From Paludibacteraceae bacterium (lineage in GTDB: Bacteria > Bacteroidota > Bacteroidia > Bacteroidales > Paludibacteraceae), in the NCBI GenBank assembly GCA_017446585.1, contig JAFSQL010000002.1, forward strand, positions 93,084-138,679: a DNA stretch of 45,596 nt. The letters are read 5' to 3'. Positions within the stretch are counted from its first letter, which is position 1. Each line of letters opens with the position of its first letter. Below, in pieces: positions 4,306 through 9,716 of the stretch. The position numbers and the translations under genes are program-made. The notes below the pieces were generated by a model. The model made no database searches. It was not told where the DNA came from and worked only from the letters and a program-made list of their open reading frames with translations.

Positions 4306-5597
4306 CACTGATACCCATCAACATAGGAGCCATCATATCAGTGGCGGTGACAGTGGTGCTGCTGTTGCTGTCCGCGCTGATGTCGGCAAGCGAAGTCGCC
4401 TTCTTCTCCATCAGCCGCAGCGAGGTGAAGAAGTTGAAAAAGGAGGACACGAAAGACGCTTCGATAGCGAAACTGATGCAGAATCCGTCAAAACTGCTCG
4501 CCACGATATTGACCGCCAACAATTTGGTGAACGTCTCCATCGTCATAGCCTCGACCTACGCCACGCACCACATCATTGACTTCGGTGGCAATCTGCTGCT
4601 GGAGTTTGTCTTTCAGACCATTATCATCACTTTCTTGTTGCTGCTCTTTGGTGAGATTTTGCCCAAAATCTACGCCACGCTGCTCGGCATTCGTTTCGCA
4701 AGGGCTGTGAGCGGCATCATGACGGTGACGGAGAAGATTCTGACTCCCATCACTTGGATACTGACACGGTCAACAAACGCCCTTGGCAAGTGGCTGAACA
4801 AGAACAAGAGGAAAGGAATCTCGGTGGACGAATTGTCAAGTGCCCTGCGACTGACCAACGAGAGCGAAGGGAAAGGCAACAAGGAGAACGCCATATTGGA
4901 GAGCATCGTTCACTTCTCGTCCATCTACGTGAGCGAGGTGATGACTCCACGAACCGAGATGACCTCGCTTTCGGTCGCCGCCCGCTTCAAGCAAGTGCTC
5001 GAACTCATCAAGCAGTGCGGTTACTCGCGCATTCCAGTCTATAGCGGAACGGAGGACAACATTCGCGGCATCTTGTATGTCAAAGACTTGTTGCCGCATC
5101 TCGACAAGGGAGACAACTTCAGGTGGCAAACTTTGGTGAGGAACGCCTACTTCGTTCCCGAGACGAAGAAGATTGACGACCTACTGACGGACTTCCAGAA
5201 GAACAAGATACACATAGCCATCGTTGTCGATGAGTTTGGCGGAACGTCGGGCGTGGTGACCATGAAGGACGTGCTGGAAGAAATCATGGGCAACATAGCC
5301 GACGAGTATGACGACGAACAACAACCGCTGTACAGGAAGACGAACGACGGTCGCTTCGTTTTCGAGGCGAAAATTCCGCTGAATGATTTCTTCAAGATTG
5401 AGAACATCCAAGAGTCTGACTTTGAAAACATCTCCGACGAGGTGGAGACACTGGCGGGACTGCTGTTGGAGATAAAGGGAGAGATTCCGTCACCGGGTCA
5501 GGAAATTGACTTCAAGCAATACCACTTCACGATATTGAAGGCGGACAACCGACATATCCAGTCGGTAAAACTATCTATTGGCAACAAGAAGAGTTGA
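4302..5597 (+). CDS. gldE: Gliding motility-associated protein GldE (CNNM/CBS transporter family)
   Basis: A 431-residue membrane protein. Residues about 1-160 form the DUF21/CNNM membrane domain (with LMSASEVAFFSIS), about 205-330 hold a CBS pair (VMTPRTEM; IAIVVDEFGGTSGVVTMKD), and about 345-427 form a CorC/HlyC domain. The family resembles magnesium/cobalt efflux proteins. GldE is known in flavobacteria to work with GldD in type IX secretion and gliding, and here gldD follows directly. The GTG start overlaps the ssb stop by four bases. In a probably non-gliding bacterium the pair is best read as supporting T9SS. Confidence 0.93.
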   Translation: MTLIPINIGAIISVAVTVVLLLLSALMSASEVAFFSISRSEVKKLKKEDTKDASIAKLMQNPSKLLATILTANNLVNVSIVIASTYATHHIIDFGGNLLLEFVFQTIIITFLLLLFGEILPKIYATLLGIRFARAVSGIMTVTEKILTPITWILTRSTNALGKWLNKNKRKGISVDELSSALRLTNESEGKGNKENAILESIVHFSSIYVSEVMTPRTEMTSLSVAARFKQVLELIKQCGYSRIPVYSGTEDNIRGILYVKDLLPHLDKGDNFRWQTLVRNAYFVPETKKIDDLLTDFQKNKIHIAIVVDEFGGTSGVVTMKDVLEEIMGNIADEYDDEQQPLYRKTNDGRFVFEAKIPLNDFFKIENIQESDFENISDEVETLAGLLLEIKGEIPSPGQEIDFKQYHFTILKADNRHIQSVKLSIGNKKS

Positions 5598-5610
5598 GCG
5601 AAGAAAAAAA

Positions 5611-6192
5611 ATGAGAAAGACAATCGCATATTGCGCTCTTGCATTGGTCATATCCATGTTGGTATCCTCGTGCTCCAAACCCGTTCCCAAGCCCTATTCC
5701 TATTTCAGGATAGACTTGCCCGAGCATGAATACACGGTTTTGGACACCGCTCCCCTACCCTTCACGTTGGAAAGGGCTAAAATCAGCAACGTGACGTATA
5801 ATGGCGTGAGGGGCGAAAACAATCAATGGTTTGACCTTGTCTATGAGAGACTGAACGCTCGCGTTTATTGCAACTACTCGCCCGTCAAGGGGAATTTGAG
5901 ACAACTGAGCGAAGACAGTCGCTCGCTGGTTTACAAACACACGGTACGCGCGGACGCCATCATTGAGCAGAACTTTGATAACGAGGAGGCGAACACGCAC
6001 GCCATCCTGTATCGTATCACGGGCAACGCGGCGTCGCCGTTGCAGTTTGTGGTCACTGACTCCACACGCCACTTCCTCAGAGGTTCCGTCTATTTCAACA
6101 ACACCCCCAATGCGGACTCCATAGCACCTGTTGAACGCTTTGTGGAAGAAGACGTGACGCACCTGATAGAAACCCTGAAATGGAAGGATTGA
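5611..6192 (+). CDS. gldD: Gliding motility lipoprotein GldD
   Basis: A 193-residue lipoprotein with a type II signal peptide: lipobox LVSSC, lipidated Cys21. The mature part begins with Pro-rich KPVPKPYSYFRIDLPEHEY, characteristic of GldD. GldD is essential for gliding and T9SS function in Flavobacterium; its biochemical role is unknown. The frame extends back to ATG 5578 inside gldE, but the ATG at 5611 after an A-rich AAGAAAAAAA leader gives a proper signal peptide and was chosen, leaving a 13-base gap to gldE. Next to gldE this identification is firm. Confidence 0.93.
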   Translation: MRKTIAYCALALVISMLVSSCSKPVPKPYSYFRIDLPEHEYTVLDTAPLPFTLERAKISNVTYNGVRGENNQWFDLVYERLNARVYCNYSPVKGNLRQLSEDSRSLVYKHTVRADAIIEQNFDNEEANTHAILYRITGNAASPLQFVVTDSTRHFLRGSVYFNNTPNADSIAPVERFVEEDVTHLIETLKWKD

Positions 6193-6196
6193 GAGC

Positions 6197-6823
6197 ATGG
6201 TTTTTCGGCAATTCTATATAGACGATGACTTGCAAATAGGCATTTGGAAGATTCAGGAATCGGAAGAAGAACTGATCCGAACGCTCGGGCAATCCCCCCC
6301 TACCCACTTAGGTGACAATGCCAAGAGACGGAGAGAGTGGCTATCGGTCAGGTGCTTGGCAAAGGCAATGAACGACGGCGTAGCCGTGGACATCGCGTAC
6401 GAAGGTAGAAGACCTTTCTTAAAGAATGGAGGCAACATCTCCATTTCACATTCAGGAGACTGGGTTGCCGTCGCCATGGGGAAAAGAGAGGTTGGAATAG
6501 ACATCGAATGCCAGACGGAGAAGGCGATGAACGTGGCAAGTCGATTTATGAACGACGAAGAATACGAACGATGGAGCAAGATGGCGGAAGACAGCCGCCG
6601 ATATTTCGCCACGGTCATTTGGTGCGCCAAGGAGGCTGTTTTCAAGACGTACAAGGACGGATGCGTTGACTTCAAGCACGACATAGCGACCGAAGCGTTC
6701 GAGGAGGAAGCCATGGGCAACTTGAAAGCGACGGACCGCAAAGGCGAGACAGTGAGGCACTATGACGTGAAGTACATGTTACACTCCATGTTTGTTCTTA
6801 CCATATCAACCCCCGTTTCATGA
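6197..6823 (+). CDS. Sfp-type 4'-phosphopantetheinyl transferase
   Basis: A 208-residue enzyme that would move phosphopantetheine from CoA to a Ser of a carrier protein. The superfamily motifs are clear: KRRREWLSVR (43-52), ISISHSGDWVAVAM (81-94), GIDIE with D102 and E104 that bind magnesium, and WCAKEAVFK (142-150). Two-domain length fits the Sfp group rather than AcpS. It starts four bases after gldD and overlaps the next gene by ATGA. PPTase genes next to gldD recur in Bacteroidetes. No PKS or NRPS is in the window, so the partner is probably the fatty-acid carrier protein or an aryl-polyene-type carrier elsewhere. Confidence 0.88.
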   Translation: MVFRQFYIDDDLQIGIWKIQESEEELIRTLGQSPPTHLGDNAKRRREWLSVRCLAKAMNDGVAVDIAYEGRRPFLKNGGNISISHSGDWVAVAMGKREVGIDIECQTEKAMNVASRFMNDEEYERWSKMAEDSRRYFATVIWCAKEAVFKTYKDGCVDFKHDIATEAFEEEAMGNLKATDRKGETVRHYDVKYMLHSMFVLTISTPVS

Positions 6824-7518
6824 TGAAGAAGATTGGCATATTGATTGACCCTGACAAGACGAGCGAGAGCGATGCTGAAACGCTGTGCCAGACGCTGAAG
6901 GCGGAGTGTCCGGACATGATTCTGGTAGGCGGCTCCAGCGTTGACAAAGACATCACTCCCGTTGTAAGCGCGTTGAAAAGGCACTTGACGATTCCCGTCA
7001 TCTTGTTTCCTGGTTCTGCCAACCAGTTCACGTCCAAGGCGGATGCCATCTTGCTTTTGTCGCTCATCTCGGGCAGGAATGCCGAATACCTGATTGGTCA
7101 ACACGTGTTGGCGGCAAACCGCATTGAAGAAAGCGGCATCAAGGTGATTCCGACAGGCTACATCCTGATAGACGGAGGATGCATGACCTCGGTTCAACGA
7201 GTGACCCAAACGGAACCACTTGACCCCAACGACCAAGAGACCATCGTTTCGACAGCACTCGCGGGAAAGTTGTTAGGGCTTCAAGCCCTGTATTTAGAAG
7301 CGGGAAGCGGGGCTCTGAATCCCGTGCCGGAAAACGTCATAGCCGCGGTGAAGCAGAGAACAGGCTTGCCCCTCATCGTGGGCGGAGGCATCAGGGACAA
7401 AGAACATGCGCGAAAGGCGTTGGAGGCGGGTGCTGACGTTATCATCATTGGCAACGCTGCCGAAAAGAATCCGGAATTGATAAGCGAATTGACACGATTG
7501 ACTCACTCTTTCAAATAG
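6820..7518 (+). CDS. Geranylgeranylglyceryl phosphate synthase family protein
   Basis: A 232-residue TIM-barrel protein of the GGGPS/PcrB family. The opening GILIDPDKTSESDA, the YLEAGSGA motif (loop 6 region) and the C-terminal phosphate-binding GGGIRD ... ADVIIIGNAAEKNPEL are family hallmarks. Family members join a polyprenyl diphosphate to glycerol-1-phosphate, forming the ether bond of archaeal-type lipids; the Bacillus PcrB uses heptaprenyl diphosphate. Homologues of the longer group II are known in Bacteroidetes, but what they do in the cell is not established as far as I know. The start overlaps the PPTase stop (ATGA), and the next gene begins eight bases after its stop. Confidence 0.88.
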   Translation: MMKKIGILIDPDKTSESDAETLCQTLKAECPDMILVGGSSVDKDITPVVSALKRHLTIPVILFPGSANQFTSKADAILLLSLISGRNAEYLIGQHVLAANRIEESGIKVIPTGYILIDGGCMTSVQRVTQTEPLDPNDQETIVSTALAGKLLGLQALYLEAGSGALNPVPENVIAAVKQRTGLPLIVGGGIRDKEHARKALEAGADVIIIGNAAEKNPELISELTRLTHSFK

Positions 7519-7526
7519 GAAAAAGG

Positions 7527-8966
7527 ATGGAAGAAATTCTTTTGCGACTATTCACCCAGACACTTGGAGAGCAGGCGGACACGATAACGAAACTGCCCGG
7601 GGCTGGTAGCAACCGCCACTACTACAGACTGAAATCGAAAAATCATGTCGCCATCGGAGTCATCGGAGAAGACGAGGAAGAAGACAAGACCTTCGTTTAC
7701 TTATCCCGACACTTTGAGAAACAAGGTCTCCCGACACCCAGAATCTTGGCGACGACGGACGACTGCAAGGCTTATCTTCAAGAAGACCTCGGTGACATGT
7801 CGCTGTTCGACTTCGTGAAAGGAGGCATCAGTCAACATGACTTCAACGCCGAGCAATGGGGAGCCATGGAGCGCAGCATTGGCATGCTGCCCAAGATTCA
7901 ATTTGAAGGGGCAAAAGGATTGGACTTCGGGAGGTGCTTTCCGCAAGCGGAATTTGACCGAAGGACAGTGATGTGGGACTTGAATTATTTTAAGTATTGC
8001 TTCTTGAAGTCCACGAAAGCCGCTTTTTTAGAGCCGAAGTTGGAAGACGACTTCGAACAACTTGCCAACGACTTGCTGGAGGACAACGAGCCAGGAACGC
8101 CAACGTTCCTGTATCGGGACTTTCAGTCACGCAACGTGATGATACAAAACGGGGAGCCCCGATTCATCGACTATCAAGGAGGCAGGCGCGGTCCCATCTA
8201 TTACGACGTGGCGTCGTTTGTGTTCCAAGCAAGGCTTCAACTGACAGGCGAACAGAGGGAGAAACTGATAGCGACCTATCTGAATGCGTTGCGTTCTTAT
8301 AGAAAGGTGGACGAAAACGAGTTCAAGGAGAAGTTGGTGCTGTTCGTCTTCTTCCGAATGCTTCAGACGCTTGGAGCGTACGGATACAGAGGATATTTCG
8401 AGAGGAAGGAAATCTTTTTGAACGCCATTCCAAGTGCCAAGGACAACTTGAAAACGTTCATGGAGGAACATGCGGACTACCTTGGCAACCGATACCCTTA
8501 CTTGTTTCACCTACTGCAAGTCATCACCCTCGACACGGACAAGAAAGAAGAGTCGTTTGACGGATTGTGCGTCGATGTCTATAGTTTCTCTTACAAGAAA
8601 GGCATTCCAGCGGACACGTCGGGCAATGGCGGAGGCTATGTCTTTGACTGCCGCGGCATGCACAACCCCGGTCGCTACGAGCAGTACAAGTCCATAACCG
8701 GACTGGACCAACCCGTCATCGACTACCTGTTGCAGCAGGGCGAGGTGCAACGCTTCCTGGCTCAGGTCTATGCCCTTGCCGACCCGCACGTACAACGCTA
8801 CATCGACCGTGGCTTCACGCACCTGTCGTTCGCCTTCGGCTGCACGGGCGGTCAGCACCGCTCCGTGTTCTGCGCCCAGAGCCTTGCGGAGCACCTGCAC
8901 AAGCAATTTCCAAACATTCGCGTGCGTCTCTGTCATCGCGAACGAGGCATCACCACCACATTCTAA
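7527..8966 (+). CDS. APH-fold sugar kinase fused to RapZ C-terminal domain (AmgK-like)
   Basis: A 479-residue fusion. Residues 1-330 are an aminoglycoside-phosphotransferase-like kinase: AGSNRHYYRL nucleotide loop near 27-36, catalytic YRDFQSRN with D198 and N203, and metal-binding D215 in IDYQGGRRGP. This resembles AmgK, the N-acetylmuramate/GlcNAc kinase of Pseudomonas cell-wall recycling. Residues 345-479 match the C-terminal half of RNase adaptor RapZ, including FGCTGGQHRSVF from 437. The RapZ N-terminal P-loop NTPase is missing. In E. coli the RapZ C-domain binds GlcN6P and small RNAs. A murU-like gene follows 12 bases later, supporting a MurNAc recycling role. Codon use changes near the domain junction: AGA/AGG and CGA dominate before about 8640, CGC after. 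Confidence 0.85.
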   Translation: MEEILLRLFTQTLGEQADTITKLPGAGSNRHYYRLKSKNHVAIGVIGEDEEEDKTFVYLSRHFEKQGLPTPRILATTDDCKAYLQEDLGDMSLFDFVKGGISQHDFNAEQWGAMERSIGMLPKIQFEGAKGLDFGRCFPQAEFDRRTVMWDLNYFKYCFLKSTKAAFLEPKLEDDFEQLANDLLEDNEPGTPTFLYRDFQSRNVMIQNGEPRFIDYQGGRRGPIYYDVASFVFQARLQLTGEQREKLIATYLNALRSYRKVDENEFKEKLVLFVFFRMLQTLGAYGYRGYFERKEIFLNAIPSAKDNLKTFMEEHADYLGNRYPYLFHLLQVITLDTDKKEESFDGLCVDVYSFSYKKGIPADTSGNGGGYVFDCRGMHNPGRYEQYKSITGLDQPVIDYLLQQGEVQRFLAQVYALADPHVQRYIDRGFTHLSFAFGCTGGQHRSVFCAQSLAEHLHKQFPNIRVRLCHRERGITTTF

Positions 8967-8978
8967 CCCTCTATCATC

Positions 8979-9716
8979 ATGAAAGCACTCATCTTTGCCG
9001 CCGGACTTGGCACACGACTCAAACCCCTCACGAACGACCGTCCCAAAGCCCTTGTGACGGTGAATGGCGTCACGCTGCTCGAGCATGTCATTCGGCGACT
9101 GAGCGCGCAGGGATTTGACGAGATAGTGATCAACGTGCACCACTTCGCCGACCTCATCATCGACTTCCTGCGACAGAAACACAACTTCGGACTCACCATC
9201 CACGTCTCGGATGAGCGTGACTGCCTGTTAGAGACAGGTGGCGGCATCAAAAAGGCGTTGCCGCTGCTCACGCAATCGGGCGAACAACCATTTCTGATTC
9301 ACAACGTTGACATACTGTCCAACGCTGACCTGCGCACCCTCTTCGAGGAGCACAGAGCCTCGGGTGCCGACGCCACGCTGCTCGTGAGTCAACGCAAATC
9401 GTCACGCAACCTCCTGTTCGACAACGACAAGCGACTGCGCGGATGGATGAACCTCGACACCCGACAGACTAAGCCCCGTGACTTTGACGACATGGAGTTG
9501 CGAGACCTTGACGGACGGGCGTTCTCGGGCATACACATCATCTCGCCAACGCTCTTCCGCGACTTCGACGCATGGCAAGGCAAATTCTCCGTCATTGACT
9601 TCTACCTCTCGCTGGTGGAGAGCCGCATGATCAAGGCGAGCGAACAAGAAGGGTTGCACCTCATTGACGTAGGCAAACTCGAGAACTTGGAACAAGCCGC
9701 CCGCTTCTTGGCGTGA
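8979..9716 (+). CDS. MurU-like sugar-1-phosphate nucleotidyltransferase
   Basis: A 245-residue nucleotidyltransferase. The signature AAGLGTRLKPLTNDRPKALV (residues 7-26) binds the nucleotide, and LIHNVDILS near 105-113 carries the metal-binding Asp. It would join NTP and a sugar 1-phosphate, giving an NDP-sugar and pyrophosphate. Alone it could be a mannose-1-phosphate guanylyltransferase. Its position directly behind an AmgK-like kinase makes MurU (MurNAc-1-phosphate uridylyltransferase), which returns MurNAc to UDP-MurNAc, the better guess. It is the last gene of the rightward run and converges on ade. Substrate is inferred from context. Confidence 0.82.
   Translation: MKALIFAAGLGTRLKPLTNDRPKALVTVNGVTLLEHVIRRLSAQGFDEIVINVHHFADLIIDFLRQKHNFGLTIHVSDERDCLLETGGGIKKALPLLTQSGEQPFLIHNVDILSNADLRTLFEEHRASGADATLLVSQRKSSRNLLFDNDKRLRGWMNLDTRQTKPRDFDDMELRDLDGRAFSGIHIISPTLFRDFDAWQGKFSVIDFYLSLVESRMIKASEQEGLHLIDVGKLENLEQAARFLA

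Follow-up and report, generated by a model that had tools for sequence, protein, structure and literature searches.

Pseudomonas salvages N-acetylmuramic acid (MurNAc) by an anabolic route that runs through AnmK, MupP, AmgK and MurU, and proteobacteria, particularly the beta and gamma classes, are reported to carry either MurQ or the AmgK–MurU pair (PMC5371407). In Tannerella forsythia, MurK, a protein of 283 amino acids (aa), makes MurNAc-6-phosphate (MurNAc-6P) (PMC5790795), and the anabolic route of this organism has been named as AmgK and MurU, with no AnmK ortholog predicted (PMC7670621). Because AmgK and MurU of T. forsythia served as a labelling control when expressed in Escherichia coli (PMC13041923), an AmgK from this phylum seems to be functional in vivo. 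Here we describe, in a 45,596-nucleotide (nt) stretch of a Paludibacteraceae genome (contig JAFSQL010000002.1; the whole stretch is called the window below), a gene in which an AmgK-type kinase is joined to the C-terminal domain of RapZ (RapZ-C) and is followed by a MurU-like gene. We tentatively propose that the fusion is a bifunctional enzyme of anabolic MurNAc salvage, in which the RapZ-C half would be a MurNAc-6P phosphatase, performing the MupP step and feeding the kinase half.

The C-terminal domain of E. coli RapZ binds glucosamine-6-phosphate (GlcN6P) with a KD of about 10 nM, at a putative site called highly conserved in homologues, and RNA binding by RapZ is reported to respond to GlcN6P and not to glucosamine-1-phosphate (GlcN1P), glucose-6-phosphate (Glc6P) or glucosamine (GlcN) (PMC7073468). 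The same source gives the basic RNA-binding tail as restricted to Enterobacteriaceae, and this tail is reported not to be conserved in YvcJ (PMC7525490). The RapZ pocket holds malonate through the side chains of H190, H252 and R253 and the backbone of T248/G249, and it holds sulfate in the full-length crystal (PMC5737377). The variants H190A, R253A, C247A and C247S are described as inactive, a catalytic role of the thiol has been suggested by the authors, and a crystal with GlcN6P likely contained a transformed product (PMC9841335). A commentary considers the pocket homologous to the loop of cysteine-dependent protein-tyrosine phosphatases (PTPs) and proposes hydrolysis of GlcN6P over time (PMC7199280). 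Phosphatase activity has been reported for YvcJ (PMC7525490) and for Xanthomonas HpaP (PMC6640185, PMC10782981), and the papers on HpaP and YvcJ are cited together on RapZ homologues (PMC7073468). The idea of a cysteine loop in RapZ is therefore already published, and what is new here is the link to a kinase together with a candidate substrate. A literature search for RapZ together with AmgK found no report, but subscription papers lay largely outside this search, which is thus no proof of novelty.

Architecture and conserved residues of the fusion

A sequence-only reading of the window had proposed an APH-fold kinase fused to the RapZ C-terminal domain, with the RapZ P-loop nucleoside triphosphatase (NTPase) missing and a MurU-like gene following after 12 nt. 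Both open reading frames (ORFs) lie where that reading placed them, and profile searches bear out the domain content (Table 1). The APH match scores 54.5 bits against a cut-off of 23.2, with the three catalytic residues named by the reading invariant in 36 aligned fusions, and the match to PF22740 (cut-off 27) covers profile positions 3–119 of 121. Pfam gave no match to the RapZ N-terminal NTPase (PF03668) in the fusion protein, and the NCBIfam RapZ model matches by its C-terminal part only (aa 340–472). Relatives of the fusion protein were found in 31 of 31 genomes searched, the source genome included, with identity of up to 59% and a single match running across both halves in 27; the fusion is therefore not a chance product, although in one of these 27 (G022) a stop separates two adjacent genes.

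The best NCBIfam families for the kinase half are two AmgK models, at 40.5 and 26.4 bits, neither reaching its equivalog cut-off (550 and 500). Both models match all 36 aligned fusions, remotely, whereas a homoserine-kinase model matches one of the 36. A PDB sequence search puts 3csv nearest among solved structures, and a 3csv fragment itself reaches 243.7 bits against an AmgK model with a cut-off of 500. Judged from these profile matches, the kinase half lies nearest AmgK among the kinase families compared, as the sequence-only reading had supposed, and not with choline or homoserine kinases.

Within the RapZ-C half, the nearest PDB structures are those of E. coli RapZ. The motif FGCTGGQHRSV singled out by the sequence-only reading is kept in the 36 fusions save for F/Y and Q/R at two positions; from its second residue on, it reads G-C439-T-G-G-Q-H-R445-S446-V in all of them but for one Q-to-R change. 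That this is a Cys-x5-Arg loop had not been remarked in that reading. Such a loop is the signature of PTPs, dual-specificity phosphatases (DSPs) and other phosphatases. D374, R376, N380, P381, G382 and H470 are likewise invariant, and the residue matching K170 of E. coli RapZ is Lys or Arg in 35 of the 36.

We compared the fusions with six canonical RapZ sequences (Fusobacterium, Latilactobacillus, Paracoccus, Tsukamurella, Aeromonas and an E. coli chain fragment). The loop (with Ser for Thr in one sequence), the DxR and the NP are common to both groups, and so is the distal His wherever the compared sequence extends to it, the E. coli fragment ending before that point. The position of E. coli His190, in contrast, is Gly in all 36 fusions and His, Tyr or Phe in the compared RapZs. 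The kinase-associated type also has an insert of about five residues (the SGNGGG region) that none of the six canonical sequences carries, and the fusions stop at HREQ or shortly after, in a short variable tail, so that the basic RNA-binding tail is missing. These alignments indicate that the pocket is reshaped relative to the canonical RapZs compared and, given the Gly at the His190 position, that the ligand is probably not simply GlcN6P.

Table 1. Features of the fusion locus, with positions in the window.
Feature	Position	Strand	Basis
Fusion gene, AmgK-type kinase + RapZ C-terminal domain; 479 aa, ATG start	7527..8966	+	ORF; Pfam/NCBIfam; relatives
Kinase core, APH fold, aa 20-259; D198, N203 and D215 catalytic, invariant in 36 fusions	7584..8303	+	Pfam; alignment
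RapZ C-terminal domain PF22740, aa 349-472	8571..8942	+	Pfam 116.8 bits; E. coli RapZ structures 5o5s, 5o5o
Insertion of about 5 residues, SGNGG, aa 365-369, of the kinase-associated RapZ-C type; not in the 6 canonical RapZ compared	8619..8633	+	alignment
NPGR, aa 380-383; G382 at the position of E. coli RapZ His190	8664..8675	+	alignments; His190 role as reported in PMC9841335
Cys-x5-Arg-Ser oxyanion loop C439-T-G-G-Q-H-R445-S446; C439, R445 and S446 invariant in 36/36 fusions	8841..8864	+	alignment
MurU-like nucleotidyltransferase, 245 aa	8979..9716	+	ORF; NCBIfam
PcrB/GGGP-synthase-like gene; ends 8 nt 5' of the fusion	6820..7518	+	ORF; Pfam; NCBIfam

Distribution and gene neighbourhood

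The kinase–RapZ-C architecture is widespread. The RapZ C-terminal domain occurs in 159 of the 198 genomes of the window's order and, in a phylum-wide draw, in 36 of 296 genomes, where it lies in frames of fusion length in 27 and in frames of 134–155 aa in nine. Carriers among the matches listed (80 loci kept of 589 candidates, which also supplied the loci scored for MurU below) include Phocaeicola plebeius, Bacteroides timonensis, Parabacteroides chinchillae and Hoylesella timonensis and, beyond Bacteroidota, metagenome-assembled genomes (MAGs) labelled Ignavibacteria, Calditrichia and Elusimicrobia. Long fusion-type matches were present in 13 of 41 genomes of the Tannerella MAG group; this does not settle whether the AmgK of T. 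forsythia is a fusion. The RapZ NTPase family was found in none of 57 genomes carrying the RapZ C-terminal domain, although the same search did detect it in E. coli and five further controls out of 14 known genomes. Based on this broad distribution and the absence of the NTPase, the RapZ C-terminal domain is put to a separate and widespread use in the fusion type. In records of Bacteroides finegoldii and Parabacteroides distasonis the fusion is named 'RNase adapter RapZ' and its neighbour 'nucleotidyltransferase family protein'; these two records (4981-6411 in both L162 and L163) come from a plasmid collection and are labelled plasmids, while their genes look ordinary chromosomal.

For the gene downstream of the fusion, two MurU models are the best of 44 NCBIfam families, at 137 and 130.5 bits, short of their equivalog cut-offs of 250 and 370. 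Of 72 scorable loci (80 loci, less four without a parsed core and four of the remaining 76 too near a contig edge), 46 show a MurU-like gene no farther than 600 nt downstream, and no other neighbour is shared to a similar extent. In several lineages (L141, L145, L150, L153-L157) kinase, RapZ-C and MurU are three separate, adjacent genes in the same order. At one locus (L097), AmpG-like and MurU-like genes stand divergently upstream of the fusion, and 56 nt after it lies a 284-aa gene (6217-7071) weakly like BadF/NagK-type sugar kinases; at another (L158) an AmpG-like gene sits beside a kinase-only gene and MurU. The AmpG and NagK matches at these two loci fall under the model cut-offs. Given the MurU linkage, the three-gene order and the AmpG-like neighbours, the gene context points to MurNAc salvage. 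When the flanks of 161 loci, of which some overlap, were scanned for motifs, two AmpG and two MurK-like genes came up and no AnmK, NagZ or PcrB; these zeros say little, because the pattern for PcrB failed to pick up the PcrB-like gene at the window's own locus as well.

That PcrB-like gene is a probable operon partner of the fusion at this locus, without a known functional link. It is preceded by gldD and a phosphopantetheinyl transferase gene, and this upstream stretch has no obvious tie to MurNAc salvage. Elsewhere, two genomes (L042 in G210, L045 in G301) carry fusion-type RapZ-C genes apart from the kinase, which sits at another place in the genome. The distance between AnmK and RapZ-C is about 16 kb in G301 and about 11 kb in G035. 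At L144, in the Bacteroidales genome G021, a 736-aa frame has a B3/4 domain, which we take to be of the tRNA-synthetase editing type, in frame ahead of kinase and RapZ-C, either as a true fusion or as an effect of assembly.

Gene content and the role of the RapZ-C half

We tabulated AnmK, MurQ, the kinase half and RapZ-C across 151 genomes, each at least 90% complete; G000, G001, G002, G003, G013, G015, G017, G027 and G029 fall below this level and were left out. MurQ was scored as present at E below 1e-50, which leaves a few rows (for example G025, G121, G322, G340 and G478) under the model's curated cut-off. The kinase of the genomes with both parts was seen directly in some and deduced from fusion-length RapZ-C frames in others, which include most fused genomes of the order. 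Of 39 RapZ-C-negative genomes of the order, 20 are listed and 18 others (including G470, G493, G495 and G505) were identified by elimination from the numbering. Kinase and RapZ-C are adjacent but separate genes in G426, the fusion is truncated at a contig start in G471 and, ahead of the Cys loop, at a contig end in G012, and the AnmK of G246 is a fragment at a contig end.

Kinase and RapZ-C occur together in 98 genomes, 60 of which have AnmK; MurQ is present in 14 of these 60. In the 46 genomes that combine AnmK, kinase and RapZ-C without MurQ, MurNAc-6P is therefore apparently made while no etherase was found to use it. RapZ-C is present in 60 of the 61 genomes with both AnmK and the kinase: nine genomes have the kinase only, and AnmK occurs in one of them (G470). 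AnmK is thus absent from 8 of the 9 kinase-only genomes versus 38 of the 98 with both parts (p 0.005, Fisher test by genome). Genomes with the kinase have MurQ in 27 of 107 cases and those without it in 30 of 44 (p 2e-6); the latter 44 have neither part, and 23 of them have AnmK, with MurQ in 16 of the 23. None of these tests corrects for relatedness within families. A kinase tree of 58 rows, whose root is unsure because the outgroup is distant, requires three changes of the kinase-only label, two of them forced by well-supported branches. RapZ-C has probably been lost more than once, since the kinase-only rows are scattered among fused or split rows. The kinase is kept without RapZ-C, AnmK or MurQ in four families (G410, G493, G412, G495, G333, G437, G020, G505).

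These patterns fit a scheme in which the RapZ-C half would take the phosphate off MurNAc-6P, or a related amino-sugar 6-phosphate, with Cys439 of the Cys-x5-Arg loop as the nucleophile, and so would do the job of MupP, the unrelated HAD phosphatase of Pseudomonas. The free MurNAc would become the substrate of the kinase half, perhaps by channelling between the halves, and the kinase would phosphorylate MurNAc, perhaps also GlcNAc (N-acetylglucosamine), at the anomeric carbon, like AmgK. MurU next door would convert the resulting MurNAc-1-phosphate (MurNAc-1P) to uridine diphosphate (UDP)-MurNAc. We favour a phosphatase because the kinase half is nearest AmgK and MurU is its sole widely shared neighbour, and because C439, R445, S446, D374, R376 and H470 are invariant in the fusions, with the loop, DxR, NP and distal His shared with RapZ. 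The gene content, with AnmK lacking MurQ in 46 genomes and RapZ-C accompanying nearly every pair of AnmK and kinase, argues in the same direction, as do the published properties of the RapZ pocket and the phosphatase reports for YvcJ and HpaP. Kinase, RapZ-C and MurU also keep their order when the genes separate, as enzymes of one path would.

Several observations weigh against this proposal. The fold neighbour of the RapZ C-terminal domain is reported to be a phosphofructokinase subdomain and not a PTP (PMC5737377), and the pocket variants of E. coli RapZ that were tested were also unable to bind RNA (PMC9841335), so that a dead C247S is no proof of catalysis. For the C-half, Pfam returned only PF22740 at E up to 10, no phosphatase appears among the best 60 of 146 PDB sequence matches, and no general acid for the proposed Cys chemistry has been identified. 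Counted by family within the order, 31 of the 46 families that have both parts carry AnmK, as does 1 of 5 with the kinase only, which gives p 0.058. G470 breaks the pattern, having AnmK and kinase with neither RapZ-C nor MurQ. AnmK is missing from 38 of the 98 genomes with both parts, and 7 of the 23 AnmK-positive genomes with neither part also have no MurQ (G367, G390, G411, G452, G463, G486 and G506, assemblies of 60 to 800 contigs); the stricter idea that RapZ-C occurs exactly where AnmK does failed on these two counts. AnmK was also found in none of 12 well-assembled tested members of the window's own family, nor in G000, a genome only some 52% complete. Because of those 12 members, either MurNAc-6P comes from another kinase in this family, as from MurK in T. 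forsythia, or the C-half has another ligand.

A serious competitor, raised in the sequence-only reading and ranked by us behind catalysis, is that the RapZ-C half is a regulatory domain that senses an amino-sugar phosphate (GlcN6P, MurNAc-6P or similar) and tunes the kinase up or down without chemistry of its own. The tight GlcN6P binding by E. coli RapZ at a conserved site speaks for it, it is plausible for a sensor to be joined to a committed-step kinase, and a sensor of MurNAc-6P would be expected to leave the same gene-content pattern as the enzyme, which also counts against our preference. However, RapZ-C also occurs as a separate operon gene not covalently joined to the kinase, Gly stands at the His190 position throughout the fusions, and a sensor leaves the step from MurNAc-6P to MurNAc unfilled in the 46 genomes with AnmK and no MurQ, unless another phosphatase serves there; MupP-like HAD phosphatases were not searched for. 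On balance, we do not prefer control by GlcN6P, and an enzyme step accounts for the gene content no less well than a sensor does. We consider it unlikely that the C-half is instead a phosphatase or binding domain for a different sugar phosphate, such as GlcNAc-6-phosphate, GlcN6P or a 1,6-bisphosphate. This would explain why it is kept in the 38 genomes without AnmK, and would accord with the GlcN6P response of RapZ–RNA binding and with the weakly NagK/BadF-like gene after the fusion at L097, but the operon ties to MurU and, in 2 of the 161 scanned loci, to AmpG indicate MurNAc salvage, and the pocket is unlike that of the canonical RapZs compared.

The sequence-only reading had also raised a link to RNA, with the C-half binding small RNAs or recruiting RNase E as E. 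coli RapZ does. The 'RNase adapter RapZ' label of the two plasmid-collection records and the basic residue at the K170 position are in line with this, but we regard it as very improbable because the basic tail that RapZ uses for RNA is missing from the fusions, and we rejected it on that ground together with the absence of the RapZ NTPase from the 57 genomes. Of the interpretation put forward in that reading, then, the AmgK-like kinase and its tie to MurU stand and the RNA link is not borne out.

A broader proposal is that RapZ C-terminal domains are at root cysteine-dependent amino-sugar-6-phosphate phosphatases, which in Bacteroidota and neighbours were fused to a MurNAc 1-kinase, converting MurNAc-6P to MurNAc-1P in place of MupP, and that GlcN6P sensing and RNA handling in E. 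coli are a later reuse of the active site; we consider this conceivable but doubtful. Should the C-half prove to be an enzyme, a widespread Bacteroidota protein labelled 'RNase adapter RapZ' in public records is a complete cell-wall recycling step, there is a MurNAc-6P phosphatase that is not related to MupP, and an independent genetic argument, together with a simple test system, becomes available for the question of GlcN6P hydrolysis by the RapZ C-domain. Should it prove to be a sensor, a cell-wall salvage kinase would carry a built-in amino-sugar-phosphate switch. Either outcome alters how the RapZ family is read and annotated.

Comparison with known systems

Compared with RapZ and YvcJ, the fusion shares the whole C-terminal domain with its C-[TS]-GG-x-HRS loop, DxR and NP, and the six canonical RapZs align with the fusion type throughout. 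It differs in having a kinase attached and no NTPase half, either in the protein or in any of the 57 genomes, and in its insert, its Gly at the His190 position and its lack of the basic RNA tail. The likeness to Cys-x5-Arg phosphatases (PTP, DSP and others) lies in the C-x-x-G-x-x-R-S loop, with C-x5-R-[ST] invariant in all 36 fusions, as already noted for RapZ (PMC7199280). Unlike those enzymes, the fusion has G and not H before the Cys, and no match to a phosphatase was seen with profile hidden Markov models (HMMs) or PDB sequences.

With AmgK (NF045759, NF045698) and MurU (NF045761) the locus shares an APH-fold kinase closest to AmgK and an adjoining MurU-like gene, as in P. putida. It differs from AmgK in scoring far under the equivalog cut-offs and in that the kinase here carries, or adjoins, RapZ-C, the AmgK model matches ending within the kinase half. 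The comparison with MupP concerns the step and not the protein: MupP converts MurNAc-6P to MurNAc between AnmK and AmgK in Pseudomonas (PMC5371407), the very step proposed here for the C-half, which belongs to an unrelated family. If our proposal is true, this would be a non-homologous replacement of MupP by Cys chemistry.

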